Below are positions 1-22,238 of a stretch of DNA of 40,731 nucleotides, one piece after another. The notes beneath the pieces were generated by a model, which saw nothing but the letters and a program-made list of their open reading frames with translations, had not been told where the DNA came from and did no database searches. Each line of letters starts with the position of its first letter. Position 1 is the first letter of the stretch. Origin of the DNA: a virus; the IMG/VR virus record IMGVR_UViG_3300009177_001103, positions 1 through 40,731 of that record, one strand, 5' to 3'. A program made the translations under genes and the position numbers.

Positions 1-215
1 ATAGGAGCCCGTGTAATAACCCGTTGGTTGCGCGGATTCGTGAAGTATTGTTTCCCGTACCCCAACGTAGCCCTGTACTTTCCCCCACCATTGCGCCGCG
101 CTTCTTTCTGTCCATACCTCAGTCGGTGTACGCCGCGCCTGGCATGGATACGAGGGGCACGGTCAGGCTGAACGCCAAAGGTCCAGTTATCTCGCTGTGC
201 TGGAGGGTTCGGCAT
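1..215 (-). CDS. Partial hypothetical protein downstream of TraF
   Basis: A reading frame opens at an ATG that overlaps the TAA stop of the TraF gene (TAATG) and stays open for 71 codons to the window edge, so only the N-terminus is visible. The peptide is basic (begins MPNPPAQRDNW) and shows no signal peptide or recognised motif. The overlap suggests translational coupling in the conjugation operon. I do not recognise the family; the call rests on the overlap and the absence of stops. Confidence 0.4.
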   Translation of the reverse strand, partial: MPNPPAQRDNWTFGVQPDRAPRIHARRGVHRLRYGQKEARRNGGGKYRATLGYGKQYFTNPRNQRVITRAP

Positions 216-736
216 TACCATGTCCAGGCCGGCTTCATCGTTTCCACAATGCTGTCCTGAGAAAGTAGGCCCCAGTACCGAGAATCGAAGCTGCGTTCGT
301 TGTACGGCGCGAGACAGAAAACTAGCCCACGCGGCACTGTGATTACACCGAGGAACCGAGCAGGGTAGGGCCGCCCCTTTGAGTCTTGTTCAAAAACCTT
401 CGTGTTGGAAACAGATTCCCCATTGATGCTTACTCCTTCTGGAGCCACGACCACGACATCTCCTTCCGTTGCAGCAATCGGCTTCACTAACATCTCTGTC
501 CACCCTGGACATAAGCCAAAGCCGATGTACCCGCGCGCCTTGGCCTGCATTGCCATGGCCTTGGGTAGGCAGAAAGAAATTAGTGATCCTTTCGTTGCCT
601 GCTTCCTGTCTCCTTTCCAGTAGTATCCAAGCGGCAAACTTGCTGAGTCATTGTAACGCCAGGGCAAGAAAGGCTTGATTGTCATCGGCAGTAACCCAAG
701 CAGGAGCAGAAGGTAAATGGTTTTCACTGTTTTCAT
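215..736 (-). CDS. traF: TraF-type conjugal transfer signal peptidase (S26C)
   Basis: A 173-residue membrane-anchored serine protease of the TraF/LepB group. In RP4-type systems TraF processes and cyclises the pilin. An N-terminal membrane segment (about residues 7-20) is followed by the catalytic serine motif SLPLG (Ser33), the lysine in LVKP (Lys85) and the conserved aspartate in SFDSRYWG (Asp151), so the family's catalytic residues appear intact. It lies at the visible end of the trb-like operon, after the DUF2274-like and small membrane genes. The start at 736 has no strong ribosome binding site. The window shows no obvious TrbC-type pilin substrate. Confidence 0.85.
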   Translation of the reverse strand: MKTVKTIYLLLLLGLLPMTIKPFLPWRYNDSASLPLGYYWKGDRKQATKGSLISFCLPKAMAMQAKARGYIGFGLCPGWTEMLVKPIAATEGDVVVVAPEGVSINGESVSNTKVFEQDSKGRPYPARFLGVITVPRGLVFCLAPYNERSFDSRYWGLLSQDSIVETMKPAWTW

Positions 737-840
737 GGTGCCGTCACTGTTCTGTTCTTTTGTTACGCTGCGGAGTTAAGGAAAGGGCTATCCGTTTTCA
801 CTTGTTTGACATCCAAGCTGAAAATTTTTCACTTCATCTC

Positions 841-1095
841 TCAATGAGTGAGCAAAAACCAGAGTCCGCCCAACCCAATGAAGGTGCTCACAGAGGAGAG
901 AAGATACGAATGAGCAGATCCCCATGCTACGATTTCTTGGCCAGTATGGGGGTGAAGGCTGAAATCCAATACTATGAATGGAAGAACAATAAGCAATGTT
1001 TTCAACACCCCAATCTCACACATGGCGTAAAAAACAATCCACACGAGGGTAAAGATAAGAACAGCGGCGAATATCTCTATGGGATTACACATCAT
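841..1095 (-). CDS. Small multi-pass membrane protein, conjugation operon
   Basis: An 84-residue protein with about three hydrophobic stretches (residues 7-26, 32-46 and 64-82), so almost entirely membrane embedded. The start at 1095 follows an AGGAGTG ribosome binding site. It sits between the DUF2274-like gene and traF in the same orientation and is probably co-transcribed. Position suggests an accessory transfer-channel membrane protein, but no Trb family is recognisable. The 100 bases between it and traF contain no convincing gene. Confidence 0.6.
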   Translation of the reverse strand: MMCNPIEIFAAVLIFTLVWIVFYAMCEIGVLKTLLIVLPFIVLDFSLHPHTGQEIVAWGSAHSYLLSSVSTFIGLGGLWFLLTH

Positions 1096-1108
1096 TGTTT
1101 CTTCACTC

Positions 1109-1282
1109 CTATCCTATCTGTACCTCTCTTTTATTTCTTCGATGTCCAAAGAGTTGATAGACTATAAAATTGAAGAATCCCAAGGCAAGAAATGCTTGTG
1201 CGACCCATGGCCGTTCTGGATACAGGAAGATAAGAAACGGCGCCATTGCTAAGGGTAAGAGTACAGTAAGGGGAAAGCTCAC
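1109..1282 (-). CDS. Small membrane protein (57 aa)
   Basis: A GTG start overlaps the stop of the upstream DUF2274-like gene (GTGA), giving 57 residues with two hydrophobic segments (MSFPLTVLLPLAMAPFLIFL and a second around residues 30-45) and a basic tail. The tight overlap supports translation as part of the operon. Small two-segment proteins such as TrbD/VirB3 occur in these operons, but I see no diagnostic residues, so that assignment is not made. Confidence 0.5.
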   Translation of the reverse strand: MSFPLTVLLPLAMAPFLIFLYPERPWVAQAFLALGFFNFIVYQLFGHRRNKREVQIG

Positions 1283-1626
1283 TTCCGCACCTCCTCACCA
1301 TTCAGCCGAACAGCGGAGAGATCCACATCCGGCACTTCTTTGTCTCCATTGAAATACGTGGCTTTGTATTCGTAGACTTCTTCCTTCCTCCCATTCTTCT
1401 TACTGACGGGCATTTGCTGTGCCTTCAACCAGATGAAGAAATCCGGGCTCACCTTTTTCGTGAGGAACGCGGAAACAACAGCGGTCATCAATTGACCATC
1501 AGTCTTGAAGTGTTGACCGAGCGTTTTTGCGTACTCTTCATACTGCTGTACAAGGTCATACGTTGCAGCTTCGAGTCTGAAGTTAATGGTTATTGCTTTC
1601 CGGTGATCGGGGGCATCGAGTTTCAT
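1279..1626 (-). CDS. DUF2274-like protein of trb operons
   Basis: A 115-residue protein. The start at 1626 is chosen for its AAAGGAGA ribosome binding site; the frame extends upstream without one. The N-terminal part (MKLDAPDHRKAITINFRLEA, then a helix with YEEYAKTLGQ) resembles, from memory, the short DUF2274 proteins that follow trbI in proteobacterial trb operons: a basic start, a beta strand and two helices of ribbon-helix-helix style. The location a few genes after trbI fits. The C-terminal extension of about 40 residues (KKNGRKEEVYEYKATYFNGD) is not part of the usual short form. The role is unknown. Confidence 0.6.
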   Translation of the reverse strand: MKLDAPDHRKAITINFRLEAATYDLVQQYEEYAKTLGQHFKTDGQLMTAVVSAFLTKKVSPDFFIWLKAQQMPVSKKNGRKEEVYEYKATYFNGDKEVPDVDLSAVRLNGEEVRK

Positions 1627-1639
1627 GCGGTCTCCTTTG

Positions 1640-1795
1640 TTATTTTTCTGAAGGCTTACAGTAGCCAGTGATCCAGTTGGGTTGCTGTTGCAAAACCACA
1701 AGCCTTGCCTCACAGTCAGATTGCGAAGTGTAGCCGTTATCCCATACTGGAACCGGCTCTCCGTTAATGAGGAGTAAGTACACGAGCATCCACAT
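1640..1795 (-). CDS. Small exported protein, tandem paralogue A
   Basis: A 51-residue protein starting MWMLVYLLLING after an AGGAAG ribosome binding site. A short hydrophobic start is followed by a polar part with two cysteines (SDCEARL and ITGYC). It aligns along its length with the next gene upstream (1804-1965): both share MW, LLING, a Y-S-C block and ITG-x-C. The cysteine pair may form a disulfide after export; that is inference. No known family recognised. Confidence 0.55.
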   Translation of the reverse strand: MWMLVYLLLINGEPVPVWDNGYTSQSDCEARLVVLQQQPNWITGYCKPSEK

Positions 1796-1803
1796 ATTAC
1801 TTC

Positions 1804-1965
1804 CTAGGGCGCTTCGGGCATTTCTTCGCAGCGACCTGTGATGAATCGCGGATCACTGCGTAGCTCGTCGAGAATCTGTTCACATTTAGAGAGGGAGTAG
1901 TATTTATATCCGATCTCCGCCTCTACGTGGCCGTTTATCAGTAAAAAGTAGAGCACCAACCACAT
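1804..1965 (-). CDS. Small exported protein, tandem paralogue B
   Basis: A 53-residue protein starting MWLVLYFLLINGHVEAEIGY after a GGAGAT ribosome binding site. The longer upstream extension of the frame has no such site. It shows a hydrophobic N-terminus and cysteines at SKCEQ and TGRC, matching its neighbour 1640-1795 in layout and spacing, so the pair looks like a tandem duplication. Both leaders have TAAT before the ATGTGG start. Function unknown; possibly a periplasmic accessory of the transfer apparatus. Confidence 0.6.
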   Translation of the reverse strand: MWLVLYFLLINGHVEAEIGYKYYSLSKCEQILDELRSDPRFITGRCEEMPEAP

Positions 1966-1966
1966 A

Positions 1967-2116
1967 TTATCTCCAGGCGTACAGTTGAATCCCAAGCGCT
2001 AGCCATAAGAGACCCACTGTGCAGACGAGAAGTATAGGAAAGGGGGAAATAGTCCAGGCTTCTCCGAGCGCTAATACAACAAGGAAAGTAAGTATTCCCC
2101 AGATAATAAGCTTCAT
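1967..2116 (-). CDS. Small membrane protein (49 aa)
   Basis: An ATG directly preceded by AGGAGG, which itself overlaps the stop codon of the upstream gene, opens a 49-residue hydrophobic peptide (MKLIIWGILTFLVVLALGEA, then a second hydrophobic stretch ending QLYAWR). Two membrane segments are predicted by eye. The strong ribosome binding site and operon position support it. Family unknown. Confidence 0.55.
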   Translation of the reverse strand: MKLIIWGILTFLVVLALGEAWTISPFPILLVCTVGLLWLALGIQLYAWR

Positions 2117-2120
2117 CCTC

Positions 2121-2312
2121 CTAGAAATCATCATTCTCTTCAACGTAAATAAGAATCTTCACCACATGGAATCCAACGAACCCGAGGAGCCAGAGCATGG
2201 CAATCAAGACGAAGGCTCGTAAAGAGTAAGCAGCGAGCCACATAAGTAGCAACCATGAGCACCCGATGATGACACAGAGAAGAATGCAGTCGCGCAAGAA
2301 TGAAGGTTTCAT
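2121..2312 (-). CDS. Small membrane protein (63 aa)
   Basis: The start at 2312 follows GTAGGAGCTGCTCCA. The frame extends upstream, but that part overlaps the better-supported gene at 2324-2488. It encodes 63 residues with two long hydrophobic helices (about 8-28 and 30-55) and an acidic tail (VEENDDF). Co-directional and tightly spaced with its neighbours behind trbI. No family recognised. Confidence 0.6.
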   Translation of the reverse strand: MKPSFLRDCILLCVIIGCSWLLLMWLAAYSLRAFVLIAMLWLLGFVGFHVVKILIYVEENDDF

Positions 2313-2323
2313 TGGAGCAGCTC

Positions 2324-2488
2324 CTACCCAAACAACGAATACAATAAAATGATGGGGGCCTGCCACGCGGCAATCGTCCAGACAGGGATATCCCGCTCCT
2401 CTGTGCTGATTGTCTTGTCGCCAAGTACGATGGACAAGCCAAACGCGCACATAAAAATGACCTTGAAAAAAGTAAACAGTGCATCCAT
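2324..2488 (-). CDS. Small membrane protein directly after trbI
   Basis: The ATG overlaps the TAA of the trbI-like gene (TAATG), giving a 54-residue peptide starting MDALFTFFKVIFMCAFGLSI and ending in a second hydrophobic segment (APIILLYSLFG). The overlap indicates translational coupling to TrbI. It could be a small inner-membrane partner of the VirB10-like channel protein, but that is only positional inference. Confidence 0.55.
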   Translation of the reverse strand: MDALFTFFKVIFMCAFGLSIVLGDKTISTEERDIPVWTIAAWQAPIILLYSLFG

Positions 2489-3747
2489 TAGTTTCTCCTC
2501 CAGGGACCGGGGAACTCTTGAATTTGTTGGAATGTGGCTACGAAGTTATATCCGACCGGGACCGATACTGTTGGACGAATTCGCAACTTCCTACGCAACT
2601 CTTCTCCGATGACTTGCCCCAACACTTGCCCGAACCCTTGAGCCGCGGCATCTTGTGGCGACATCTGGTAGCCGTACCCGTCATATGATGAACTCTGGTA
2701 GGTTGCCATTCTGACGCCGGCTGCAACGAGAGAAAGAATTGCTGCGGACCCGTAGCGCTGGAAGAAGTGGTGGTTCACTGGTCCGTCAATGCCTTGAATC
2801 CCATTTTGCATCTGCGCATTGATCCCAGGCGCTGCTAAGTAGGCCCCGTTGGGATAGTCCGCATTCGGTGGGAACTGGAGTAAGGTCAGCTTCAAGTTCA
2901 ACACAGGCTGTTCGTTGTTATCCATGCTGGGATCTCCGATGCCGACCACTCGTGTGCCAGCGGGAATCAGCACCTCTTTTGAGTACAGAGAATCGAGCAC
3001 GTCCGTGTTCACATGTCCTACCCAGGACCCGCCCGGCGCATCGGAGTTGGCCCATTGATCTAACGTGATTGGTAAGTGTGTCCCGGCATAGAGAATGTGA
3101 GACGATCGGGGAGCGCTCAGGTAACTGGTGGAAAGCGGGCCAGCATTGGCGAGTTGTTGATTTGCAATCTGCGGCTGTCCTTCCGTTGTCCCTGTCCCTG
3201 TCTCTTGCGTGGCTCCATTACTTGCTTGACTATTCATTACCGCAGCAAGAGTAGGGGTCACCCCGGCTCCTGTCTTCTCGGTATTGTTGTACAGATTGCC
3301 ATCACTCACAGACCGTAGTGCTTTGTTTTTTTCGTCGTAGCGTGTCTCGATCGTTTTCATGTCTTGCTTAAAGAAGAGATCCGTACGTTGCATTTTGCGA
3401 TCCATTGCTGATTGTCTGAGCGCAAAGTATTCACGCCACCCAGTATCAAAGAGCGCCATCTGCTGGCGGAACTTCGCTTCTTCCCACCGCTTATCAATCG
3501 GCTCTTCCTTTGGCTTCTCTGGAAGGTCAATCTTTGGTGGTGGCGGTAACGGTTTCTCTACGATGTCTTTCGTTACCATCGGGTTACCACCCACGACCGT
3601 GAGGTCTGGAGTCTTGGTGCGGCTGACTACGCCGTAGTACCACAAAGACCCGATAAATAGGACAGGAATACTGACGCATACAACAACGAGACGCCATCGA
3701 ATACGACGACTTTGATGAGGGGCCGCCCCTGTGACATTAGTTGCCAT
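2488..3747 (-). CDS. trbI: TrbI / VirB10-like conjugal transfer channel protein
   Basis: A 419-residue protein of the VirB10/TrbI family, which spans the envelope in type IV secretion channels and joins the inner-membrane and outer-membrane rings. Visible parts in order: a short cytoplasmic start; one membrane segment (about 22-40); a proline-rich stretch (EKPLPPPPKIDLPEKPKEEP); a Gln/Thr-rich linker; and the C-terminal beta-barrel domain with family signatures VLIPAGTRVVG, GIDGPVNHHFFQRYG, a glycine/alanine-rich antenna region and IRPTVSVPVGYNF near the end. Its start overlaps the stop of TrbG (TAATG). Length and motif order are normal for the family. Confidence 0.85.
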   Translation of the reverse strand: MATNVTGAAPHQSRRIRWRLVVVCVSIPVLFIGSLWYYGVVSRTKTPDLTVVGGNPMVTKDIVEKPLPPPPKIDLPEKPKEEPIDKRWEEAKFRQQMALFDTGWREYFALRQSAMDRKMQRTDLFFKQDMKTIETRYDEKNKALRSVSDGNLYNNTEKTGAGVTPTLAAVMNSQASNGATQETGTGTTEGQPQIANQQLANAGPLSTSYLSAPRSSHILYAGTHLPITLDQWANSDAPGGSWVGHVNTDVLDSLYSKEVLIPAGTRVVGIGDPSMDNNEQPVLNLKLTLLQFPPNADYPNGAYLAAPGINAQMQNGIQGIDGPVNHHFFQRYGSAAILSLVAAGVRMATYQSSSYDGYGYQMSPQDAAAQGFGQVLGQVIGEELRRKLRIRPTVSVPVGYNFVATFQQIQEFPGPWRRN

Positions 3748-4886
3748 TATTGCCTCGTGATCTGCACAGTGGGTTGATTCTTATCCGCCCCGTACCGGAT
3801 CTCCGCTTTATCGAAGAGTCCCTCGACGGTGATCCAAGGAAGTGCTTGCATGTTTATATTTGGGATGAGTTCCTCACCGCTCCGCTGAATAAAGATTGCC
3901 GGGATACCAAGTGTCTCTAGACCAGAGGGAAGCAGAATAAAGGTGCGGGCGTTATCGTTGGCAACGAAGGAAGGACAGAACCGTGCACCGCCACACTCAA
4001 TTTTGTAGTTAGTGTAGACATGGCTCAGGTCCGTCTGTAGCCCATGCGCCACAATGGTCTTCTCGTGGGCTTGGTGCTCTTGGGCTATGGCGTTGAGCTT
4101 CTTGACGATATTTTCTGGATACCAGAATTGCAGGAGCTTTGTAGTCTTGGACCCTGACACGGCATTGATTGTGTACATCCGGCGATTGGTGCCGAAGCTC
4201 ACGGTGGTTTTCATGTAGGGCAGTGTGTCTTTCGGCTTTAAGAGCAGCGTCTGTACAACCCCGTCTCCTTCTCCATATTGCAACGGAAACGCAATCCACC
4301 GTTCTTCATCAGCGAGATAGAATCCGTTCTTATTAAGAATGAACTCTCCGGGCTCCAGCTGGATCTTGCAGAAGTCGAGGGCTTTACAGTAGACCGTCGG
4401 TTCTTTCTTCAGGTTGTACGGCCACACGATGAATCCTGTGGTCTTGGTCCGGTCTATAATGTCCGCCTTGCCAGTCTGAATAAATCGTGAAGCCGCTTCA
4501 CTGATGTCCGGTTCCAACGTGTCTAAGAAATTCACTGGAGTCGGGGGAACAATCGGTTCCGGTGCCGGAGTCTCGACAGCATGTGCTTGTATCATAGGTG
4601 GGGGAGGTGGAGCGTATGGTTTCTTTGTGGAGCAGCCTAAGACCCAAGGCAGGAGCGCCATACCAAGAAGAACTATAGAGATGGGTGTATGGTGGTATCT
4701 GTGTAGGAAGAAGCAGATTACTGCTCCGGCCAGATACGCCCCCGCTAACAAAAGAGAGTCGTGTACTACACGTTGAGGCATCGGTGCTGTATGTGGGGGA
4801 ACAAGAGGAAGAAGAACCCATATGGTAGCCCCAAGGAACAGATACCCCAGAGAGAGGCAACTGACACGAAAACCGAAAATGCTCAT
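3747..4886 (-). CDS. trbG: TrbG / VirB9-like outer-ring protein with extra N-terminal membrane segments
   Basis: A 379-residue VirB9/TrbG homologue, an outer-ring component of type IV secretion channels that binds VirB10. The body contains GFIVWPYNLKKEPTVYC, IQLEPGE and NRRMYTINAVSGS, all typical of the family. Unusually, about 70 residues precede the lipoprotein-like signal (ALLPWVLGC, Cys85). They hold two hydrophobic segments (about 10-30 and 44-61), so the protein looks like a small membrane protein fused ahead of the usual lipoprotein start. The start at 4886 has a GGGAG ribosome binding site, which favours the long form; translation from an internal Met would give a more ordinary TrbG. 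A proline-rich linker follows Cys85. Confidence 0.83.
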   Translation of the reverse strand: MSIFGFRVSCLSLGYLFLGATIWVLLPLVPPHTAPMPQRVVHDSLLLAGAYLAGAVICFFLHRYHHTPISIVLLGMALLPWVLGCSTKKPYAPPPPPMIQAHAVETPAPEPIVPPTPVNFLDTLEPDISEAASRFIQTGKADIIDRTKTTGFIVWPYNLKKEPTVYCKALDFCKIQLEPGEFILNKNGFYLADEERWIAFPLQYGEGDGVVQTLLLKPKDTLPYMKTTVSFGTNRRMYTINAVSGSKTTKLLQFWYPENIVKKLNAIAQEHQAHEKTIVAHGLQTDLSHVYTNYKIECGGARFCPSFVANDNARTFILLPSGLETLGIPAIFIQRSGEELIPNINMQALPWITVEGLFDKAEIRYGADKNQPTVQITRQ

Positions 4887-4897
4887 AGATAACTCCC

Positions 4898-5584
4898 TTA
4901 CTTCATCTCGCTATACGAAAACTCACTGACAAATACTCCATCCCGTGAGACTTCGCGTTCTGCTCCCGTTAACTTGCTTGGGTCTTTCAGTTCGAGAGTG
5001 CCACTACCTGCAAACTGCTGCGGTGTCCTGTTATGTGTCGGCTCTCGTGTTTGTTCCTGCCACCGGGCAGTAAACGAGTTCCCCGTCTGAATGGCGACTT
5101 GCACGGTGCCTTCAATAACGGACCGTGAAAGATCGCGGGCATTGAGGTCGTCAGGTTTTCCCTCGCGGGCAAAATACTCATCAATGAAGTGCTGCGCCTT
5201 CGTCCTGCTCATGTGATACGCAATGTTGGTTTCTTGCTGGAGTACAGCATCCCGTGTCACGAGCCGTATCCCCTTAATGTACCGTTCTAGCCTCAGTCGA
5301 ATAGCTTCTTGATCGTGCGCGTCAACAGACCGAATCCCGAACTGCCACGAATTTCCTAGTGCGTCAGTCACGTCGCGGTAATGAAATTCCTTCCTTCCAA
5401 AAGAGAGAGCCACCACCGCCACGAGTAGGGCAACTGCAACCCCAGACACTGCCCACAGACTTACCTGGAGGTCATGCTTCTCTTTGTCTTTCTGTGTAAG
5501 GATGTCGGACCAGTAGCCGACATTGGTTTGGTCAATGTCGAGGATCGGATGCGGCGCTGTCTTTTCTGTTCTCGTAGAAGGCAT
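4898..5584 (-). CDS. trbF: TrbF / VirB8-like inner-membrane protein
   Basis: A 228-residue bitopic inner-membrane protein of the VirB8/TrbF group, which helps assemble the type IV secretion channel. A cytoplasmic start of about 40 residues precedes a single membrane segment (about 43-62). The NTF2-like periplasmic domain contains an arginine-rich helix (RLERYIKGIRLVTRDAVLQQ), an AYHMSRTKAQHFIDEYF helix and a closing strand (GVFVSEFSYSEMK). It is the first gene of the operon; the start at 5584 has AAGGAA upstream. In typical trb operons TrbB, C, D, E, J and L lie before TrbF. Here they are absent from that position and would have to be left of the window or missing. Confidence 0.8.
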   Translation of the reverse strand: MPSTRTEKTAPHPILDIDQTNVGYWSDILTQKDKEKHDLQVSLWAVSGVAVALLVAVVALSFGRKEFHYRDVTDALGNSWQFGIRSVDAHDQEAIRLRLERYIKGIRLVTRDAVLQQETNIAYHMSRTKAQHFIDEYFAREGKPDDLNARDLSRSVIEGTVQVAIQTGNSFTARWQEQTREPTHNRTPQQFAGSGTLELKDPSKLTGAEREVSRDGVFVSEFSYSEMK

Positions 5585-5643
5585 GAGGAAGATTCCTTAT
5601 TCACTTACACATTGACATCACAATTTGTTCGATATACTGTGAC

Positions 5644-5679
5644 ATACAATGTATATAGCAAAGTCGAAACAAAATGCAA
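5644..5679 (-). promoter_or_regulatory. Candidate promoter and operator of the trb operon
   Basis: On the minus strand TTGCAT (5679-5674) and TATATA (5657-5652) are 16 bases apart, a plausible sigma-70 promoter pointing into trbF. The -10 overlaps an 11-base palindrome ATACAATGTAT (5644-5654), a likely operator. The divergent ribbon-helix-helix gene nearby is the natural candidate to bind it. Read from sequence only. Confidence 0.4.
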
Positions 5680-5723
5680 GCGCCTTCTTTTTTGTGTTCC
5701 CCTTCCCTCAAAACGCGGCCACT

Positions 5724-5751
5724 TTGCACACCGTGCGCGGTCCGCTATAAG
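5724..5751 (+). promoter_or_regulatory. Candidate promoter of the ribbon-helix-helix gene
   Basis: TTGCAC (5724-5729) and TATAAG (5746-5751) are separated by 16 bases. The -10 nearly touches the first ATG (5753), so transcription would begin close to the second ATG (5759), implying a leaderless or nearly leaderless mRNA. A short inverted repeat ACCG/CGGT lies in the spacer. Confidence 0.35.
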
Positions 5752-5752
5752 T

Positions 5753-5968
5753 ATGTCGATGCCTAGCACACCCAAAGAAAAAAAAGCAAGAGGCGCGAAC
5801 CCTCCACAGGATCAAGGACTCTATTTACGAGTGAGTCGGGAATTGATGCAAAAGATTGACGAGGCAGTGACGACACGCCGGCGAGGAGCGCCTGGCTTGA
5901 ATGTCTCGCGTTCTGGGGTTGTGCGGGAGCTGCTCTTGCGGGTATTAGCGGAGAAAGAGTCACTGTAA
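5753..5968 (+). CDS. Ribbon-helix-helix transcriptional regulator
   Basis: A 71-residue protein with a basic, flexible N-terminus and a ribbon-helix-helix fold: a strand (GLYLRVSRE), helix A (LMQKIDEAVTTR) and helix B after the SRSG turn (VVRELLLRVLAEK). This pattern is typical of CopG/Arc/ParG-like DNA-binding dimers. It is transcribed away from the trb operon, from a gap with palindromic sequence, and so probably controls that operon and itself. Translation could start at 5753 or at the second ATG, 5759. A partition role (ParG-like) cannot be excluded, but no ParA-like ATPase is seen nearby. Confidence 0.7.
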   Translation: MSMPSTPKEKKARGANPPQDQGLYLRVSRELMQKIDEAVTTRRRGAPGLNVSRSGVVRELLLRVLAEKESL

Positions 5969-6052: not shown

Positions 6053-7252
6053 ATGTACAACAGAATAGGGTTGACGTTTGCTCTCGCGTTCGTTCTCAAT
6101 CAAGGGGGAAGCTGGGCGGGACCGCCGCAACCAAACATCGCCCCTTCCTCCCCGACTGCGATTATCGAAACCTCGAACACTGCCATCGGCCAGGGAGCCC
6201 TGGCGAATAACACCACCGGCAACTACAACACAGCAAGTGGTCTCAATACACTCTATAAAAACCTGGGGGGCTGGGAGAATACCGCTAGTGGCAGTCAGGC
6301 CATGCAGGAGAACACGGACGGCTCGTACAACACGGCCACGGGTCAAGCTGCACTGTTTGAAAATACGCTGGGCAACTATAATACAGGAACCGGACTGAAC
6401 GCGCTCTTTTGCAACACCACAGGCAGCCTCAATACTGCGATGGGAGCCAATGCCTTGATCTGTAATACCACCGGGATTGGGCAGTCTGCGTTTGGCGCTA
6501 ACACGCTCCGGCAGGCGGGAATGACGAACTACAACACCGCCTTTGGAAGTTCCGCCCTGGCCGTCTTGGGAACAGGCAACAGTAATGTTGGCGTGGGAAG
6601 TTCCGCGTTCGCGACCATGACGACAGGTCAGCAGAATACGTCACTAGGGAATGTTACTTTTCAGTTCATGACTGCCGGTGATCGGAACATTGGCCTCGGC
6701 TATGGCGCCGGGAAGTTGCTCACCTCCGGATCTGACAATATCTACGTGGGGACACAGGGGGGCGCCCCCACTGAGTCAAAAACGCTGCGCCTCGGCAGTG
6801 TCCAGACGCGCGCGTTCCTGGCGGGAGTGTCTGGCGTGCCTGTCGTCGGGAATACCGTCTTAATCAATAGCCAAGGCCAGCTTGGCGTGCTTGTCTCCTC
6901 AGCTCGCTACAAACAAGATGTCGTCTCTCTGCAGGACCAGAGTGGAAAGATCCAGCGCTTGCGGCCTGTGTCCTTCCACTATAAGCAGTTGCCCCAGGAG
7001 TCCGTACAGTATGGGCTGATTGCAGAGGAAGTAGCAAAGGTCTATCCGGAGTTAGTCACACGTAACGCACAGGGGAAGATTGAAGGGGTGCGATATGACG
7101 AGCTTACGCCGCTGTTACTTGTGGCGCTCCAGCAGCAACATCGTGAACTCACTGCTATGCAAACACGGATAGAGGAACTCTCATATGCCATCAATCATGC
7201 GCCTGCTTATGAGGCAAGCCTTACCCCTATTGCCGGAGCCTGTGGGAAGTAG
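6053..7252 (+). CDS. Exported repeat protein with C-terminal peptidase S74 chaperone domain
   Basis: A 399-residue protein. The first ~23 residues (MYNRIGLTFALAFVLNQGGS) look like a signal peptide. Residues ~40-240 consist of YadA-head-like repeats of the type NTAxGxxALxxNTTGxYNT, expected to form a trimeric beta-roll. The C-terminal ~110 residues are the intramolecular chaperone/self-cleavage domain known from endosialidases and tail spikes: it opens with SARYKQDVVSLQ, includes YGLIAEEVAKVYPELV and YDELTPLLLVALQQQ, and ends in a coiled coil. The start has an AAGGAAGAG site. S74 domains are usual on phage fibres, but a signal peptide points to export as a surface adhesin-like trimer instead. 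Its 3' end overlaps the convergent gene by 46 bases. Confidence 0.8.
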   Translation: MYNRIGLTFALAFVLNQGGSWAGPPQPNIAPSSPTAIIETSNTAIGQGALANNTTGNYNTASGLNTLYKNLGGWENTASGSQAMQENTDGSYNTATGQAALFENTLGNYNTGTGLNALFCNTTGSLNTAMGANALICNTTGIGQSAFGANTLRQAGMTNYNTAFGSSALAVLGTGNSNVGVGSSAFATMTTGQQNTSLGNVTFQFMTAGDRNIGLGYGAGKLLTSGSDNIYVGTQGGAPTESKTLRLGSVQTRAFLAGVSGVPVVGNTVLINSQGQLGVLVSSARYKQDVVSLQDQSGKIQRLRPVSFHYKQLPQESVQYGLIAEEVAKVYPELVTRNAQGKIEGVRYDELTPLLLVALQQQHRELTAMQTRIEELSYAINHAPAYEASLTPIAGACGK

Positions 7253-12949: not shown

Positions 12950-15451
12950 TCATGACCTCACGTAGTAGTATTCTCGGTCGCTGTCCCCACTATCTGTACG
13001 TCTTCGTTTCTTTACGTAACCCAATGTTTTAAGAATGATGCCAATACGGGTTTGCATGGCGCGGGTACGTCGTTCGGCGGGTACGTCGAGACAGAGCGAG
13101 CCAAAGATGTCTTGAAGGATCACATTGCCAGGACGTGCGGTGATGAAATCTGCTATTTTATCTTCCCACGGATCATCTTCTCGAACGGATTGTCTCACTT
13201 CGTTTGCTTCTGCCATGATAATGGGGTCATCCGTCCACCATTGTTCTCCTGCACGGTATGCTGCTCTGGCTTCTGCAAAGAGTTGAAAGAGTGAATCTCC
13301 GATTGCTTTGAGGTTGATGTCTCCGACTTGAACCGGGAAGAAGCGGCGGGCGCCGTAGGGGTCAACGATATAGGCAGGGTCATTTGTTGTTCCGACAAAA
13401 ACAGTACGCCTCGGCTGGTCAATCTCATGGCGAGCATAGGCAGGTCGGTAGGCATCAGAAAGCATGGTCAGGAGACTCTTAATCCTGGCTTGTCCTGACC
13501 GGGCGAAGGCATCGAGTTCCGCGAGTTCCGCAACCCATGCTCTGCGTAAGGCAAGGAAGAGGTCTTTCGTCTCAAAACTAACAGAGAGGGCTTTATACCA
13601 AGGGCCACCAACCAACCGACAGAGACTCGTCTTCTTTGACCCTTCCGCTCCTTCGAGGACTATGACGGTATCAACCTGACATCCAGGCTTATAGGCGCGA
13701 GCAACCAAGGACAGGAAAAACGACCGGCCACAGAATGCTGTATACGGCGTTTGCTTCATGTTGCAGAAATCAGAGAAGAAATAAGACAACCGTTCTTCCT
13801 GATCCCATTCCGGCAAGGCGTCTAGCCATGTCGTAATTGGGTCATACTGAAAATCTCGTGACACATGGTCGACGGCTTGCGTACAGTGGCCGAGGTGCAT
13901 CACTGCCATGCGGAACTCTTGCCGGAGATAATCGGCTAACCGCGCGTCGTCGGTATCACTCCAGCCATGGGCATCAAATCCACGTCCATATTCGTCAAAT
14001 TGCGGTTCTCCGTACTCGGCTTGACCTGTGAAGCTGTTGTACTTGAGATTGTCGCGCCACAGCGGCGTATGGCGCAAAATCAAGCTCATGTTGGCAGGAC
14101 ACGCAATAGGATTCCCCTGTTGTGTCGTGAGTAGCCCTTTCCCCCATCCCGCTTCCCTATCCCAGCCATGTCCCTTCGCTAGATTGAAGAGTGTGCCTAG
14201 TGTGACGCTCTCTTCAGTCCCAACTCCGCTTTCGTGAAAGGTTTCCCAGGTCCGGTACTGATCGCCCTCGTCGTAGTGTTCGTCTTTCCGACTCCATTCG
14301 TCCCAGAGATGAAATGCTGATGTGTGTCGCGTCGATGCTAACGCCCGCCCAATTTTCAGCCACGTCTCACGGGTGGCTGGAGAGATAAATGTCAGCGCTT
14401 CTTTGACTTCGAGGGGATTAAACGAGATGATTGTTTTGGAAGGGCGTGTTTTCTTCGGGGGTGCAACTGAGGGTTTCTCGCTCGTCTCCTGTGTTCCTGT
14501 TGTCACTCTCTCTCCCCGGAACCCCTGCTTGTAGAGCGCTTGCGCCGCCGCGCCATAATCCCCGTTATGGTTGAGCAGGGTGTAGACGCTAAACTTCTGA
14601 TAGCCCTTCGTTGTGTCAAATTGCGTCGAGCTGGAAAAGCAATAGAAACAATCTGACCCGGCATAATTGGTCGTGGCGCTCACATCGCGCTGCTTCCCTG
14701 GCCTGCGCCAATGGTCGACCTCTCCAATGCGTCGCACCCATTGCCACCCATGCGGCTCCAAAATGTCACGCCATGACGTGGCCGCGGCAAAGAGATCGCC
14801 AGGCCGCGTGCCGTTCTGTGTGGGTTGTTGCGTAGGAGGAGGGTGATATTCAGGCCGTACAGGCGATTCATCGAACGATCGGCAGAGAGTGAGTATGGCG
14901 TCTCGTTCTGTGGGGGTCAGGGTCACAATGGATTCCCAGCCGCCTTGTAAACGTCGATACGGTTTACCGGATTCATGCACGGTCCCATGACTTGGCGCCA
15001 AAATGCAGAATCCGCCTTCTCCTCGGGTTTCAATCAGGGTCTGGTAGGTCTGTGTGCAGGCGAGCTTCAGGTTCCCAGCGATCGTCGAACAGCGCCAGAG
15101 CAAATGTGCTCCAGGTTTCGGCGTTTGCTCCTCGTAGCCTGCTCGAATACGGGACACGAGCGCTTCAAGTCCTTGTTCTCGCGCTCGAGCGAGAAACGAT
15201 TGATAGGTGTCCCAGTGATCAAAGTCCAACACTTCCAAGTTCCCGCTGACCGCGCCGGCGATGACGCCAATGCCTTGGCGTGTGGGAGGAAACCAGTGCT
15301 GAATCTCTGCGGCCGTGGGGAGTCGGTGCTCGTAGGTGCGCCAGGGCCCAATGGGTTTCTTGCTGCCGTCTTCTTCCGGTGGAATCACACAAAATCCCAA
15401 CGCCAACCCGGTTTGGGCGAGGGACAACATTGGGGAAGTGTGCATCGTCAC
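12950..15451 (-). CDS. PrimPol-helicase replication protein (AEP primase + PriCT + VirE/D5-like helicase)
   Basis: An 833-residue replication protein. Residues ~8-190 form an archaeo-eukaryotic primase/polymerase domain, with the metal-binding LEVLDFDHWD (Asp76, Asp78) and GAHLLWR. Residues ~225-310 match a phage primase-linked module (ILEPHGWQWVRR, then WRRPGK and FSSS). Residues ~343-430 resemble PriCT_2 (LTFISPATRETWLKIGRAL). From ~440 a VirE/D5-type helicase carries Walker A GAEGSKKTS (601-609) and Walker B WVAELAELDAF (~639-649), then GTTND and GARRFFPV. The protein probably primes and unwinds the genome. GTG at 15451 has AAAGG; ATG at 15445 is the alternative. Confidence 0.9.
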   Translation of the reverse strand: MTMHTSPMLSLAQTGLALGFCVIPPEEDGSKKPIGPWRTYEHRLPTAAEIQHWFPPTRQGIGVIAGAVSGNLEVLDFDHWDTYQSFLARAREQGLEALVSRIRAGYEEQTPKPGAHLLWRCSTIAGNLKLACTQTYQTLIETRGEGGFCILAPSHGTVHESGKPYRRLQGGWESIVTLTPTERDAILTLCRSFDESPVRPEYHPPPTQQPTQNGTRPGDLFAAATSWRDILEPHGWQWVRRIGEVDHWRRPGKQRDVSATTNYAGSDCFYCFSSSTQFDTTKGYQKFSVYTLLNHNGDYGAAAQALYKQGFRGERVTTGTQETSEKPSVAPPKKTRPSKTIISFNPLEVKEALTFISPATRETWLKIGRALASTRHTSAFHLWDEWSRKDEHYDEGDQYRTWETFHESGVGTEESVTLGTLFNLAKGHGWDREAGWGKGLLTTQQGNPIACPANMSLILRHTPLWRDNLKYNSFTGQAEYGEPQFDEYGRGFDAHGWSDTDDARLADYLRQEFRMAVMHLGHCTQAVDHVSRDFQYDPITTWLDALPEWDQEERLSYFFSDFCNMKQTPYTAFCGRSFFLSLVARAYKPGCQVDTVIVLEGAEGSKKTSLCRLVGGPWYKALSVSFETKDLFLALRRAWVAELAELDAFARSGQARIKSLLTMLSDAYRPAYARHEIDQPRRTVFVGTTNDPAYIVDPYGARRFFPVQVGDINLKAIGDSLFQLFAEARAAYRAGEQWWTDDPIIMAEANEVRQSVREDDPWEDKIADFITARPGNVILQDIFGSLCLDVPAERRTRAMQTRIGIILKTLGYVKKRRRTDSGDSDREYYYVRS

Positions 15452-17225: not shown

Positions 17226-17558
17226 CTACTTTGCCCATCCTTCCTTACTCATTTTCCCAAGACGCAGATCGGGCGGCGCCGCGTTCAGTAACTTGGCATA
17301 CTGGAGCACGCCCAGGATGCGTTGATGCGCGTTGACAATGCCGACTAGGGCTGTCAATGCAACCTTCTGTAGAGGGGTCGTGTCAGGGCGCGGCCCATAC
17401 TCGGCTTCAACTGCCTCCCATGCGTTGGGACCGTGCTTCGTTGCAATGTAATGCGCCGTGAGCATTTCTTGCGGAAGGAGCCCCATCGCTTCCGCGGCAG
17501 CTTTGTTTAATCCTGGGAGCAACTCTCTTAGTGTGTAAGCAAATTGTGGATCTTCCAT
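17226..17558 (-). CDS. Helical hypothetical protein (110 aa)
   Basis: A helical protein starting MEDPQFAYTLRELLPGLNKA, with further helices around AAEAMGLLPQEMLTAHYIA and QKVALTALVGIVNAHQRIL. The start at 17558 has GAGGAA in the end of the upstream gene. No conserved catalytic pattern seen; possibly a replication or host-takeover accessory. Confidence 0.6.
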   Translation of the reverse strand: MEDPQFAYTLRELLPGLNKAAAEAMGLLPQEMLTAHYIATKHGPNAWEAVEAEYGPRPDTTPLQKVALTALVGIVNAHQRILGVLQYAKLLNAAPPDLRLGKMSKEGWAK

Positions 17559-17560
17559 AA

Positions 17561-17914
17561 TTACGATTCCTCTTTGTCTATGCGTGCGATGATCGCACGG
17601 CGCTTCAGGCGTGCATCGTCAAAAAGTGGAAAGCATGCCTCGCAGAGTTCAGGCACGCCCTCTCCGTTGCATTCTTGACAGTTCGCATTCGCCGTCTCGG
17701 CTTCTTCGAGAGCCTGGAGAGCTTCATACAGTTCTGGCGCCGCGAGAATGAGTGCGCGATTCTCCAGTGTGACGAACTCACAAATACAATGACCGCCGTA
17801 CCATTTTTGATCTTGTTGTCTGTGCTCCTCTGACTGCGATGGGATCTCCGTGTCGCAGACGATGGTATCCGGTTGTTTTTCGCTTTGCCGCCATGGCGGC
17901 GGACTATGTTTCAT
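17561..17914 (-). CDS. Phage early protein with zinc knuckle (117 aa)
   Basis: Begins HSPPPWR and contains ENRALILAAPELYEALQALE, a phrase widely seen in small tailed-phage early proteins of unknown role. A cysteine pattern follows (CQECNGEG, then CEACF), a possible four-cysteine zinc site. The start at 17914 has GAGAGAGGAAA. It is the last gene before a 120-base leader gap to its right. Confidence 0.65.
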   Translation of the reverse strand: MKHSPPPWRQSEKQPDTIVCDTEIPSQSEEHRQQDQKWYGGHCICEFVTLENRALILAAPELYEALQALEEAETANANCQECNGEGVPELCEACFPLFDDARLKRRAIIARIDKEES

Positions 17915-17999
17915 CGTTCGTTTCCTCTCTCTTGCAACCGCCGCTCTGTTTGGTATAGTGAGCGGGTTCTCGATAACTCCTATATCCTTACCCGTCAGT

Positions 18000-18026
18000 T
18001 GGCCCCGCTCTCATCCCGCGGGGCCA
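18000..18026 (-). other. Leader hairpin before 17561-17914
   Basis: A perfect 9-bp stem (TGGCCCCGC at 18000-18008, GCGGGGCCA at 18018-18026) sits in the 120-base gap between two minus-strand genes. No U-run follows in the minus direction. It resembles the other leader hairpins of the region. Confidence 0.6.
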
Positions 18027-18034
18027 ATCAAATC

Positions 18035-18256
18035 TCACGATCGGACCTTCACACCTTCTCCTTTCTGTGTTGGATTTTTGACATTCCGCTTCCGACAGCA
18101 CCGCACCGCGTCGTCCTGTTGGACATGATGCGTCTTGCAGCGTGGACAGGCGTAGCCGTCCGGTATCAAGAGGCACCGGAGATTCGGCGCTCCGAGTTTT
18201 TGTTCCGTACTCAGGGCTCCACATTCGGAGCACTTGTAGGCGAGCAACGCGCGCAT
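18035..18256 (-). CDS. Double zinc-ribbon protein (73 aa)
   Basis: The start at 18256 (AAGGACA upstream) overlaps the previous gene's stop; the long upstream frame is not used. Cysteine pairs: YKCSECGAL, CPRCKTHH and RCC, indicating one or two zinc ribbons joined by a loop. The tail is basic. Probably nucleic-acid binding; unassigned. Confidence 0.6.
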   Translation of the reverse strand: MRALLAYKCSECGALSTEQKLGAPNLRCLLIPDGYACPRCKTHHVQQDDAVRCCRKRNVKNPTQKGEGVKVRS

Positions 18257-18483
18257 TATCCGTTGTCCTTGTGATAGATTTTCGGAATGCGCCCCACGCC
18301 GAGAAAGATCACCGTGCGCCCCAACGTGAGAGTTTTCTTTGTGCTCTTTGAGACCGGCCACACATTCTCTGACCGGCACTCGTCGCAGACCCCACATCGT
18401 GCGTTGATCTGGTAGTTGTGGCAGTCCCGGCACTGATACCACCATTCCCCGAGTTCTGGGCGATCAACATGTTGTTCTTCCAT
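18256..18483 (-). CDS. Zinc-ribbon protein (75 aa)
   Basis: The start at 18483 has a strong AAAGGAGG site. Contains WWYQCRDCHNYQ and CGVCDECRSEN, a four-to-five cysteine zinc ribbon (residues ~18-38), followed by a strand-rich C-terminus (TLTLGRTVIFLGVGRIPK). Adjacent genes on both sides also encode zinc ribbons, suggesting local duplication or a functional set. Confidence 0.6.
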   Translation of the reverse strand: MEEQHVDRPELGEWWYQCRDCHNYQINARCGVCDECRSENVWPVSKSTKKTLTLGRTVIFLGVGRIPKIYHKDNG

Positions 18484-18494
18484 GACTTCCTCCT

Positions 18495-18626
18495 TTATTT
18501 TCTGTGGGGTCCGCCGCGTCTCAAAATACAGGCATCGCAGAACGGCACCCATAGTGTTCCCACCAGCACCCGCCACCGTGCGGCAGTGGGGCAGTCTGTG
18601 ACTGAGCATTTTTTGTCATCCGTCAC
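18495..18626 (-). CDS. Small zinc-ribbon protein (43 aa)
   Basis: A GTG start overlaps the stop of the upstream gene (GTGA). The 43 residues contain CSVTDCPTAARW and PFCDACILRRG, four cysteines in a zinc-ribbon spacing. The overlap supports translation despite the small size. Confidence 0.55.
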   Translation of the reverse strand: MTDDKKCSVTDCPTAARWRVLVGTLWVPFCDACILRRGGPHRK

Positions 18627-18766
18627 GACGCTCTCCAGACCAGCGCCCAGAACACGCCGAGTGCAAACCCGCAGGCTACACTTACGAGCACTGCCACTAA
18701 CCTACGAGACTTGAGTTGTTTGATCTCGGCTTCAAGTTCAACGACATATTCAGTCAACGAAGCCAT
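18623..18766 (-). CDS. Coiled-coil plus membrane peptide (47 aa)
   Basis: Starts after AAGGGAGACCGT. An N-terminal helix (LTEYVVELEAEIKQLKSRR) with heptad-like spacing precedes one membrane segment (LVAVLVSVACGFALGVFWAL). The layout recalls spanin-like or small phage inner-membrane proteins; no function assigned. Confidence 0.55.
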   Translation of the reverse strand: MASLTEYVVELEAEIKQLKSRRLVAVLVSVACGFALGVFWALVWRAS

Positions 18767-19013
18767 ACGGTCTCCCTTGTTTTAAGAACACACTGGGTCG
18801 GGCTGATTGATGAAAATGCAGCGCCACCCCCAGCACGACGAGCTGCCAATCTCTCTCGCCGTACCAGCGCCAGCGAAAGAGCACCGGTCGCAAGGCAATC
18901 GAGAACCTGGTGGTGACGCGCGGCGTTCCTTCCGCTCCGCTTCTCCACGTCCACCTCGCAATGCGTAGCTTGTGGCGCCGCTGACTCCATTGAAAAATCT
19001 GCGTACAGGTCAT
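18750..19013 (-). CDS. Hypothetical basic beta-rich protein (87 aa)
   Basis: ATG at 19013 is preceded by GAGG at proper spacing. The product is basic and beta-rich (FSIALRPVLFRWRWYGERDW, then QLVVLGVALHFHQ). A competing frame on the same strand starting at 19191 by TAATG overlap is also open but has low-complexity Ala/Arg/Ser content, so this frame is preferred. Choice of frame is uncertain; family unknown. Confidence 0.45.
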   Translation of the reverse strand: MTCTQIFQWSQRRHKLRIARWTWRSGAEGTPRVTTRFSIALRPVLFRWRWYGERDWQLVVLGVALHFHQSARPSVFLKQGRPYGFVD

Positions 19014-19028
19014 AGAAACCTCGTGAGC

Positions 19029-19138
19029 GCTGCGCAGGGGGGAGAAGAGTCTCCTGCGCAGCGACTGCCAGAGCGGTAGGCAAAGGAGGAGAGCCTCCGC
19101 TCTGGACAAGGAATGACGCCGGCAGCATTGCGCTGCCG
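19029..19138 (-). other. Three consecutive strong hairpins (structured leader or small RNA)
   Basis: Three stems lie in a row: GCTGCGCAGG/CCTGCGCAGC (19029-19038 with 19053-19062); CCAGAGCGG/CCGCTCTGG (19068-19076 with 19097-19105), extended inward by AGGC/GCCT; and CGGCAGC/GCTGCCG (19120-19126 with 19132-19138). They fill the gap between dcm and the next downstream gene. This may be an untranslated leader, a processed small RNA or a structured DNA site. Strand of function is uncertain. Confidence 0.55.
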
Positions 19139-19190
19139 CTGCGAAGGAGGGGTGATCCGCAGGAGCGTGAACTCGCGTCATGGGTAAACA

Positions 19191-20285
19191 TTAGGCCGCC
19201 CCTTCCGTTCTGAATTGTTTGCCGAACCATTCTATGACATTGACAGTGACGGCATTCCCTAACGCCCGGTATTGTGGCCCATCAGGGCAGACACACGGAA
19301 TCTGTTGACAGAGACAGAGCCAATCATCGGGAAACCCCTGCAATCTGGCGCATTCGATAGGAGTCAGGCGGCGGACTCCATTTTGAGGAATCAACTTGCC
19401 TATTTCTTGATCGTTGACGCCTGCTCTTCCATGTCCCTTTGTTGTAAAGCCGGAGGTCAGTGTTCCTGCAACAAGATGACTTCCTTGCGCGTCGTTATCG
19501 TCTGGGCCTCCCGTGTAGCCGTTGAAACAGTTAACAATTAAATTCATATCGTCTTCTCCCCCTCGGCCTGCCATGTGTCCGCTAGGCGGGACAGTGCGGC
19601 TTCTAAGGGTGGCGGCAACTCTCTTCCCCGTTTCTCCGCTCGGCGCAAAATCCCCGCTGCTGCTCGCGGACTCAAACAGTATTGCGCGGACACCTGACTC
19701 TGTAGGACCGCAGACAAAGAACACGCGGCGCCGTCGCTGGGCGACTCCGAAATACTGACTGTCGAGAACCCGGTAGCCGACAATAGGCCAGCACTCCCGT
19801 AGCCCGTTGAGGACGGTCCACATATCGCGTCCATGATGGGAAGAAAGGAGCCCTGGGACATTCTCGAAAAGCCCCCACTGCGGCTTGACTTCTTTGGCAA
19901 TCCTGACGATTTCCCAGAAGAGACCGGAGCGTTCCCCGCTAAGTCCTGCCCGCTTTCCGGCGACACTGAGGTCTTGGCAGGGGAATCCACCGCAGAGGAG
20001 ATCAACACTGCCGGTGGGTGGTCTTGAGCAAGACTGTCCGTCACTCCGTAACTGTGTATCGGCCCTTGCGCTCCTGTCTGATTCGTTCGGAAAGAAAGAA
20101 GAATATTCATCCCCGTTGCTTTTCCACTCCCGCACGTCAGGCCAGCGGGGAATATGTGACCAGTGTCGTTCAAGGACTCGTCGGCAAAAAGGGTCAATTT
20201 CGATTTGTCCCGCACATCGGTGTCCTTGTCGCTCAAGTCCAAGTTCAAACCCTCCAATTCCGGCGAATAGGGACAGAAATCTCAT
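19191..20285 (-). CDS. dcm: DNA (cytosine-5) methyltransferase
   Basis: A 364-residue C5 cytosine methyltransferase with the usual ordered motifs: I (SLFAGIGGFELGL, residues 5-17), IV (GGFPCQDLS, catalytic Cys103), VI (ENVPG), VIII (QRRRRVFF), IX (RRLTPIECARLQGFP) and X (YRALGNAV). A variable region between VIII and IX would recognise the target. It starts by TAATG overlap with the upstream gene. Likely protects phage DNA from restriction. A second open frame overlaps its middle (see 19544-20110), which constrains the sequence of the region before motif IX. Confidence 0.9.
   Translation of the reverse strand: MRFLSLFAGIGGFELGLERQGHRCAGQIEIDPFCRRVLERHWSHIPRWPDVREWKSNGDEYSSFFPNESDRSARADTQLRSDGQSCSRPPTGSVDLLCGGFPCQDLSVAGKRAGLSGERSGLFWEIVRIAKEVKPQWGLFENVPGLLSSHHGRDMWTVLNGLRECWPIVGYRVLDSQYFGVAQRRRRVFFVCGPTESGVRAILFESASSSGDFAPSGETGKRVAATLRSRTVPPSGHMAGRGGEDDMNLIVNCFNGYTGGPDDNDAQGSHLVAGTLTSGFTTKGHGRAGVNDQEIGKLIPQNGVRRLTPIECARLQGFPDDWLCLCQQIPCVCPDGPQYRALGNAVTVNVIEWFGKQFRTEGAA
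19544..20110 (-). CDS. Overlapping alternative-frame protein inside dcm
   Basis: Within dcm, on the same strand in another frame, an open frame ends at 19544. Its C-terminal part (DGAACSLSAVLQSQVSAQYC, then LSPRAAAGILRRAEKRGREL) closely resembles, from memory, a widespread phage/metagenomic protein of unknown role whose end reads YxLSxxACxGILRRAEKRGKELP. The N-terminal half is Ser/Pro-rich (VDSPAKTSVSPESG), also as in that family. This argues for real dual coding rather than a chance frame. The start is uncertain: ATG 20110 is given, and a TTG at 20257 extends it. Confidence 0.55.
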   Translation of the reverse strand: MNILLSFRTNQTGAQGPIHSYGVTDSLAQDHPPAVLISSAVDSPAKTSVSPESGQDLAGNAPVSSGKSSGLPKKSSRSGGFSRMSQGSFLPIMDAICGPSSTGYGSAGLLSATGFSTVSISESPSDGAACSLSAVLQSQVSAQYCLSPRAAAGILRRAEKRGRELPPPLEAALSRLADTWQAEGEKTI

Positions 20286-20470
20286 TAGGGTTGCTCCTCC
20301 GGCAATTCGCTCGCGGCACTCTCACAATTATCGGCTACACACCAGCCGTTACACTCGGCCTCATCAAAAATGATTACCCCTTCAGGGCAATGTTCCCGGA
20401 TATAGGCAGCGGCTACGCGCAGCATGTAGTGTGCTCGCGATTCCCCTGGCTCAAGGATGATCGTCCTCAC
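20285..20470 (-). CDS. Small hypothetical phage protein (61 aa)
   Basis: A GTG start overlaps the upstream stop (GTGA). The sequence (IILEPGESRAHYMLRVAAAY, EGVIIFDEAECNGWCVADNC) is of a type common among small phage early proteins: a helix followed by a strand and two or three cysteines. It is coupled to dcm by TAATG at its end. Function unknown. Confidence 0.65.
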   Translation of the reverse strand: MRTIILEPGESRAHYMLRVAAAYIREHCPEGVIIFDEAECNGWCVADNCESAASELPEEQP

Positions 20471-20739
20471 AACAATTCCCCCGTCTCTTCCACATTTTTC
20501 TTCTTGATCGGCTTTGCCTTCTGCACCGCCACCGCCTGTACAGTTCCTCGCAACACTGCCGTTACTTCATCCACCACATCCATCCCATGCTCAACGCAGT
20601 AGGTACGCTGTCCGGTCAGCCACACACCGCCCACCCGATGTTTCCCCACACAGCACATCGGTCGCATCGTCGCGAAGCAGTCTTCCTTCACCACTTCCCC
20701 ACCAAAGACGTCGAAGAGAATATCGTTATCAAGCGCCAC
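20467..20739 (-). CDS. Hypothetical protein (90 aa)
   Basis: A GTG start with a strong AAAAAAGGAGG site. Contains a CC/C/H-bearing central section (MRPMCCVGKHRVGGVW, TYCVEHGMDVV), perhaps metal binding, and a lysine-rich C-terminal stretch (KAKPIKKKN). Not recognised. A leader hairpin lies immediately upstream. Confidence 0.6.
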   Translation of the reverse strand: MALDNDILFDVFGGEVVKEDCFATMRPMCCVGKHRVGGVWLTGQRTYCVEHGMDVVDEVTAVLRGTVQAVAVQKAKPIKKKNVEETGELL

Positions 20740-20754
20740 GACCGCCTCCTTTTT

Positions 20755-20782
20755 TACGCAGCCGCTTGCGTACGGCTGCGTA
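20755..20782 (-). other. Leader hairpin before 20467-20739
   Basis: A perfect 10-bp stem (TACGCAGCCG at 20755-20764, CGGCTGCGTA at 20773-20782) with an 8-base loop stands directly before the AAAAAAGGAGG site on the minus strand. On the plus strand the stem has only a short T-run in front, so it is not a plus-strand terminator. Confidence 0.65.
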
Positions 20783-20788
20783 CATACG

Positions 20789-21160: not shown

Positions 21161-21197
21161 GAGACAACTCCTTTACCCTATCGATAAAATACGAGAG

Positions 21198-21428: not shown

Positions 21429-21438
21429 AATATGACCG

Positions 21439-21468
21439 TACAAGGAATTACAAGAAATGTCAAGTAAC
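21439..21468. repeat. Tandem 10-base operator repeats between divergent regulators
   Basis: TACAAGGAAT (21439-21448) and TACAAGAAAT (21449-21458) are adjacent, differ by one base and sit one helical turn apart; a looser third unit (GTCAAGTAAC) follows. A minus-strand TTGACA (21463-21458) overlaps them. The placement between two divergent DNA-binding genes marks a likely control site. Confidence 0.6.
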
Positions 21469-22227: not shown

Positions 22228-22238
22228 CGAGGGTATCC

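Follow-up and report, generated by a model that had tools for sequence, protein, structure and literature searches.

The viral record IMGVR_UViG_3300009177_001103 of IMG/VR, a linear sequence of 40,731 bp that was analysed over its full length (the window), carries part of a Trb-type conjugation operon together with head genes of a tailed phage. Phages and conjugative elements are usually treated as separate routes of gene transfer. Joined with a second IMG/VR contig, the window probably represents a circular or circularly permuted, podovirus-like tailed-phage genome of ~95.3 kb, which encodes its own complete P-type (Trb) operon and would be extrachromosomal and phage-plasmid-like. "Phage-plasmid" is used here as a working label; the description that the sequence itself supports is "tailed-phage genome with a complete Trb conjugation module". 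We consider the chances evenly balanced that it is a true conjugative phage, that is, one replicon with a complete virion and functional self-transfer, both used for horizontal spread.

A search with the portal protein led to the contig IMGVR_UViG_3300025941_000667 (78,217 bp; hereafter G001), on which no TrbI was found. The two contigs overlap twice (Table 1), and in the alignment both matches end exactly at contig ends, giving a dovetail at either side and an implied size of 40,731 + 54,529 = 95,260 bp. The genome so implied is circular or circularly permuted. There are 5 mismatches in the 457-bp overlap versus 4 in the 23-kb overlap, a pattern consistent with one population having been assembled twice, with both assemblies breaking at a spot dense in single-nucleotide polymorphisms; both contigs would end inside the short overlap because of this variable stretch. 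The initial annotation, made from the window, had placed phage and conjugation genes on one molecule, and the second contig supports this by closing the circle. The distance between the trb genes and the terminase-portal module is also as first described, running from 5.6 to 28.8 kb.

The trb genes continue to the left of the window, as had been proposed: they were found on G001, which overlaps the left edge, and the missing operon half fills its first 9.7 kb. TrbB, TrbC, TrbE, TrbJ, TrbL, a relaxase and a coupling protein, all suggested earlier as genes to look for on that side, are each present there. Together the two contigs hold a single operon of ~15.6 kb on one strand, in the order trbF-G-I-small genes-traF-relaxase-traG/virD4-trbB-C-D-E-J-L, followed by a terminator. 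VirB4/TrbE, VirB11/TrbB and TrbC, D, F, G, I, J and L thus lie in one locus, the set by which the P-type (Trb / MPF_T) is recognised; no TrbK or TrbH homologues were recognised in it. The mating apparatus of relaxase, coupling protein and Trb channel is nearly complete. In the relaxase alignment, Y89 and the HxH motif are retained and invariant among relatives, the sequences of TrbE, TrbB and TraG keep their P-loops, and TrbE also matches TrwK/VirB4 structures by sequence.

Within the window, matches to hidden Markov models (HMMs) bear out the first reading of TrbF, TrbG, TrbI and TraF homologues, while its "DUF2274-like" gene found no HMM support. The open reading frame (ORF) at 1279-1713 returned only DUF7216, below cut-off, and no DUF2274 in the Pfam scan. 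A DUF2274-like small gene, judged by reading the ORF, does occur at the equivalent trbI/traF position of L021, one of the related operons described below. Two other small genes of the trb operon (1640-1795 and 1804-1995) encode paralogous membrane-type proteins that are 43% identical (E=5e-10).

The phage part of the genome comprises an early and a late arm. Past the operon, a pair of small genes on G001 is followed by the late arm, entered from its convergent end; read backwards, it encodes a 3396-amino-acid (aa) protein, tail and internal-virion-type proteins, long repeat and beta-helix proteins, the capsid protein and portal-TerL-TerS. The tailed-phage head genes (terminase, portal) reported initially were recovered as matches to TerS, TerL and portal families; with the major capsid protein and tail genes, the components by which Caudoviricetes are recognised are all present. 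The late arm appears complete, with open frames for its genes in the contigs, and the phage is a tailed, podovirus-like one. The early arm encodes VapE/Prim-Pol replication, methylases and many small proteins. Between the trb and terminase regions, where a phage replication region had been proposed, genes of phage or phage-plasmid style were indeed found, including RusA and RNase H, and the VapE/Prim-Pol protein could act as the replication module. The trb operon lies where the early arm meets the end of the late arm, with phage genes on both sides. Such a meeting point is an expected site of accessory genes. The S74-tailed protein flanking the operon at 6053..7252 is homologous to the 1448-aa tail-fibre-type protein of G001 (27%, 6e-16).

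Base composition likewise links the operon to the phage. The guanine-plus-cytosine (GC) content is 53.9% in trb, 53.7% in the early phage genes and 53.8% in the late genes, against 61-64% in the homologous operons measured in metagenome-assembled genomes (MAGs). At third codon positions (GC3) the values are 58.3% for trb, 57.7% for the early and 54.9% for the late genes, compared with 72-80% in the measured MAG operons. In codon usage, the trb-early distance is smaller than the early-late distance, and the 4-mer composition has no step at the trb borders. Neither a chimera formed recently nor a newly inserted operon would be expected to show this composition and the flanking S74 homology, which argue against both.

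Table 1. Features of the joined genome, with positions in the window or in G001 (IMGVR_UViG_3300025941_000667)
Feature	Sequence	Position	Strand	Evidence or remark
Short end-to-end overlap with G001	window	1..457 = G001 457-1	.	98.9%, inside tra operon
Relaxase, N-terminal part	window	3..221	-	window/G001 overlap; rest on G001 237-1301
TraF-type S26 signal peptidase, pilin maturation	window	215..736	-	Peptidase_S26 PF10502 1.8e-15; TIGR02771 TraF_Ti 7.5e-39, over cut-off
Small genes between trbI and traF	window	1279..2488	-	ORFs of 54, 58, 63, 51, 115 aa
TrbI / VirB10-like	window	2488..3747	-	PF03743 E=8.6e-28, over cut-off; IncP-type TrbI 5e-28
TrbG / VirB9-CagX-like	window	3747..4886	-	PF03524 E=4.9e-20; TIGR02775 TrbG_Ti 1e-26
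TrbF / VirB8-like, first operon gene	window	4898..5584	-	PF04335 E=5e-12; NCBIfam TrbF 3e-6
Divergent control region upstream of trbF	window	5585..5752	.	candidate operon promoter; short imperfect inverted repeats
Small divergent gene, 71 aa, ribbon-helix-helix-like by eye	window	5753..5968	+	ORF; without Pfam match
Peptidase_S74 chaperone-tailed protein flanking trb	window	6053..7252	+	PF13884 2.3e-11
Prim-Pol / PriCT-2 / VapE primase-helicase	window	12950..15451	-	PF05272 2.4e-61, PF08707, PF09250; phage helicase/primase PHROGs
Long overlap with G001	window	17501..40731 = G001 78217-54987	+	23,231 bp, 99.983%, gap-free alignment
Sigma70 region-4-like regulator, late-arm start	window	28800..29345	+	phrog_351 3e-5
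Terminase small subunit (TerS)	window	29564..30256	+	phrog_6299 1.2e-6
TerL ATPase half	window	32328..33068	+	phrog_2 1.4e-9
TerL nuclease half, separate gene	window	33068..34099	+	tblastn, annotated TerL of Pasteurella and Rhizobium phages, 3e-5 to 9e-5
Portal	window	36583..38580	+	phrog_156 2e-22
Probable scaffolding protein upstream of major capsid gene	window	39749..40731	+	position only
Relaxase	G001	237-1301		PF03432 Relaxase 2.3e-10 on full protein
TraG/VirD4 coupling protein	G001	1301-3199		T4SS-DNA_transf PF02534 2.6e-60
TrbB	G001	3528-4532		T2SSE/TrbB HMM match
TrbC-like pilin	G001	4593-4925		position and weak alignment only
TrbD	G001	4938-5228		VirB3/TrbD HMM match
TrbE	G001	5386-7908		TrbE family E=4e-163, full length
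TrbJ	G001	7835-8656		HMM match
TrbL	G001	8656-9726		HMM match
Intrinsic terminator after trbL	G001	10032-10066		inverted repeat and T-run
Major capsid protein	G001	53959-54906		phrog_9953 2.8e-25

As a conjugative phage, the element would remain extrachromosomal after infection, a life suggested by the lack of any integrase found. Its relaxase would nick an oriT (origin of transfer), the TraG coupling protein would pass the strand to the Trb channel powered by TrbB and TrbE, with a TrbC pilus processed by TraF, and the element would enter neighbouring cells by conjugation. Upon induction, TerL would package the genome into virions, which would spread as phage. From the gene content we infer a putative dual transmission, by virus particle and by cell-to-cell mating. 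No tyrosine integrase (PF00589) was found in the joined genome, and serine integrases are excluded only indirectly; an integrated prophage is disfavoured because the tyrosine integrase is absent. The integrase and chromosomal att sites typical of an integrative and conjugative element (ICE) are likewise not what was found, there being no tyrosine integrase and a circular closure.

Several points weigh against this interpretation. An oriT was not recognised, either through known nic motifs or by comparison of upstream regions: the control region at 5585..5752 holds none of these motifs, and elsewhere they are scattered in coding DNA, as chance predicts. The product of the small divergent gene beside this region is possibly a regulator or a relaxosome accessory protein. 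Pfam scans detected no plasmid rep, par or partition genes and no lysogeny repressor, so that plasmid maintenance is at most presumed, and the plasmid-type initiator and partition functions that characterise a phage-plasmid were not found. Lysis genes were not identified in the joined genome. Each trb/phage junction is carried by a single contig, and the linkage is known from assembled contigs alone. Finally, no second genome with both the virion and the conjugation sets was found among the sequences searched. Of the two explanations offered initially, a phage-plasmid with conjugal parts or a prophage fused to a conjugative element, the sharing of one molecule by phage and conjugation genes is supported, but the plasmid half is not, as no rep/par genes were found and no episome was observed; a prophage fused to a conjugative element is a less likely origin.

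The main rival, which we regard as unlikely, is a plasmid-prophage cointegrate, in which a conjugative plasmid would carry a phage genome, perhaps defective, as cargo, and the whole would persist as a plasmid and spread through mating. P1-like elements that lose phage genes are known to gain mob/oriT (PMC10879196), known cointegrates keep conjugation while their lytic cycle is probably impaired (PMC12977533), and the operon family is otherwise without phage genes within ~10 kb. Nevertheless, no plasmid backbone gene (rep, par or other) was recognised beside the phage set, no tyrosine integrase marks a boundary, the codon use of trb equals that of the phage early genes, and the late arm seems complete with open frames. 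It is improbable, to a greater degree, that the Trb channel is kept for a role other than genome transfer, such as an attachment pilus, superinfection control or protein delivery. The failure to find an oriT would agree with such repurposing, but the operon retains at its centre a motif-intact relaxase and TraG/VirD4, both of them DNA-transfer parts. Phage accessory operons often alter the host surface, which also speaks for a repurposed channel.

An assembly chimera, with a phage contig misjoined to a trb-bearing plasmid or ICE, is very unlikely. The metagenomic source, the single contig at each junction and the uneven mismatch counts of the two overlaps would be in its favour, yet it needs two errors, on opposite sides of the operon and in two contigs, that still produce a geometry closing the circle. 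Moreover, composition and codon use are phage-like whereas the nearest relatives have a higher measured GC content, and the flanking gene at 6053-7252 is kin to this phage's fibre protein. The possible refutation named in the initial annotation, a chimeric junction near 5.6-7.2 kb, is thus unlikely. The slimmest chance is given to a prophage beside a chromosomal ICE, excised together as a provirus. Three short viral contigs, L108, L109 and L110 (IMGVR_UViG_3300033052_000041, 3300042509_003105 and 3300013013_000026), carry TraG next to TerL/portal or tail-type genes, in L109 with an integrase between them. Here, in contrast, phage genes lie to either side of trb and the contigs close a circle, which largely refutes this explanation, and neither a tyrosine integrase nor a recognisable chromosomal gene was found.

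A scan of GTDB with the TrbE alignment gave soil Deltaproteobacteria, Binatota and similar MAGs as top matches (33-38% identity). Five of these MAGs (L020, L021, L023, L029 and L043), three of them read gene by gene, match the phage operon in arranging these genes on a single strand as trbG-trbI-traF-relaxase-traG-trbB-(trbD)-trbE-trbL, with trbL undetected in one. Their modules resemble that of the phage in TrbE (33-37% identity) and relaxase (37-43%) but are set among chromosomal-type genes, with a GC content of 61-64% where measured. The idea that phage DNA had entered a canonical trb plasmid between trbL and trbF, which would yield the permuted order, was considered and dropped, because several soil MAGs share this order and have no phage genes nearby. 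Our guess is that the host belongs among such soil bacteria.

The scans of IMG/VR and GTDB used short exact or degenerate peptide patterns, which distant cases may escape. Degenerate TrbE motifs matched only G001 in IMG/VR, and PHROGs holds no family for most trb proteins of the operon. The portal protein had no match in GTDB genomes, in plasmids or in the genomes bearing related operons, and the capsid protein had none in plasmids. In the phylum of Ca. Binatus soli, capsid-family matches occurred in 6/297 genomes, and in no case did the matching contig also carry TrbE. Nearly all INPHARED records that contain TrbE or TraG are contigs from the human gut. Four of them, labelled "Bacteriophage sp." (MT836029, MT836721, MT835635 and MT835580; L012, L013, L017 and L119), were rejected as parallels because no phage structural genes were seen among the ORFs read; these records from human faeces look like mislabelled fragments of conjugative plasmids or ICEs. 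TraG motifs in IMG/VR matched three further contigs, L108-L110, which lack TrbE; they were rejected as equivalents, their prophage head/tail genes beside TraG/VirD4 looking like a prophage that landed near an ICE.

Further features of the phage arms were observed. The two TerL genes share a TGATG overlap in different frames, and both assemblies agree on the split. The 3396-aa late protein (G001 14049-24239; L006/L007) has transglycosylase (SLT), SF2 helicase, methylase and RadC-like domains and is probably a polyvalent protein of the internal-virion type. A helicase/methylase common to this giant protein and conjugation loci was looked for and rejected, the match being limited to the transglycosylase domain. 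A large host-recognition region (G001 40083-50994) encodes a lectin/polysaccharide-lyase-type protein, an 1852-aa beta-helix and TIG-repeat protein and the 1448-aa fibre-type protein, which has internal tandem repeats. Three distinct DNA methyltransferases (N6/N4, C5 and another) are encoded at window 10965-12083 and 19191-20285 and at G001 37257-37916. Several imperfect repeats of 41-70 bp, e.g. CCACTAAACATAGCCC, lie between early genes at window 25694-27939 and are possibly shared control elements.

According to PMC10879196, phage-plasmids acquire conjugation functions mainly on ceasing to be phages, and a genome that has both sets in full would break the trade-off between phage and conjugation described there. 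Such a mobile element would itself encode two independent modes of transmission, would easily escape software that classifies contigs as either "virus" or "plasmid", and would make it possible to ask directly whether one genome can alternate between spread by particles and spread by contact.

Among known systems, phage-plasmids of the P1, SSU5 and N15 type are similar in having virion genes without an integrase and, for P1 (~93 kb), in size; they differ in that a relaxase and full channel are present here (cf. PMC12217456) while plasmid rep/par genes were not found. Phi1207.3, a conjugative prophage of Streptococcus pyogenes, is reported to move by a conjugation-like route (PMC4260502), but it is integrated, that article does not mention a relaxase or type IV system, and its transfer mechanism is not established. 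Conjugative transfer of streptococcal prophages is also the topic of a 2023 paper, as cited in PMC12217456, and may be a precedent. The domain mix of the 3396-aa protein recalls the polyvalent proteins common to phages and conjugative elements (PMC5512222), although the present protein belongs to an element with both delivery routes, and a conjugative phage might possibly send such a polyvalent early protein by both. P-type (IncP/Ti, MPF_T) plasmids share the core trb parts, a DUF3363-type relaxase and TraF, with 33-35% identity between TrbE and plasmid TrbE; unlike these plasmids, which have the order trbB-C-D-E-J-L-F-G-I and rep/par genes, the operon described here begins with F-G-I and is accompanied by virion genes.

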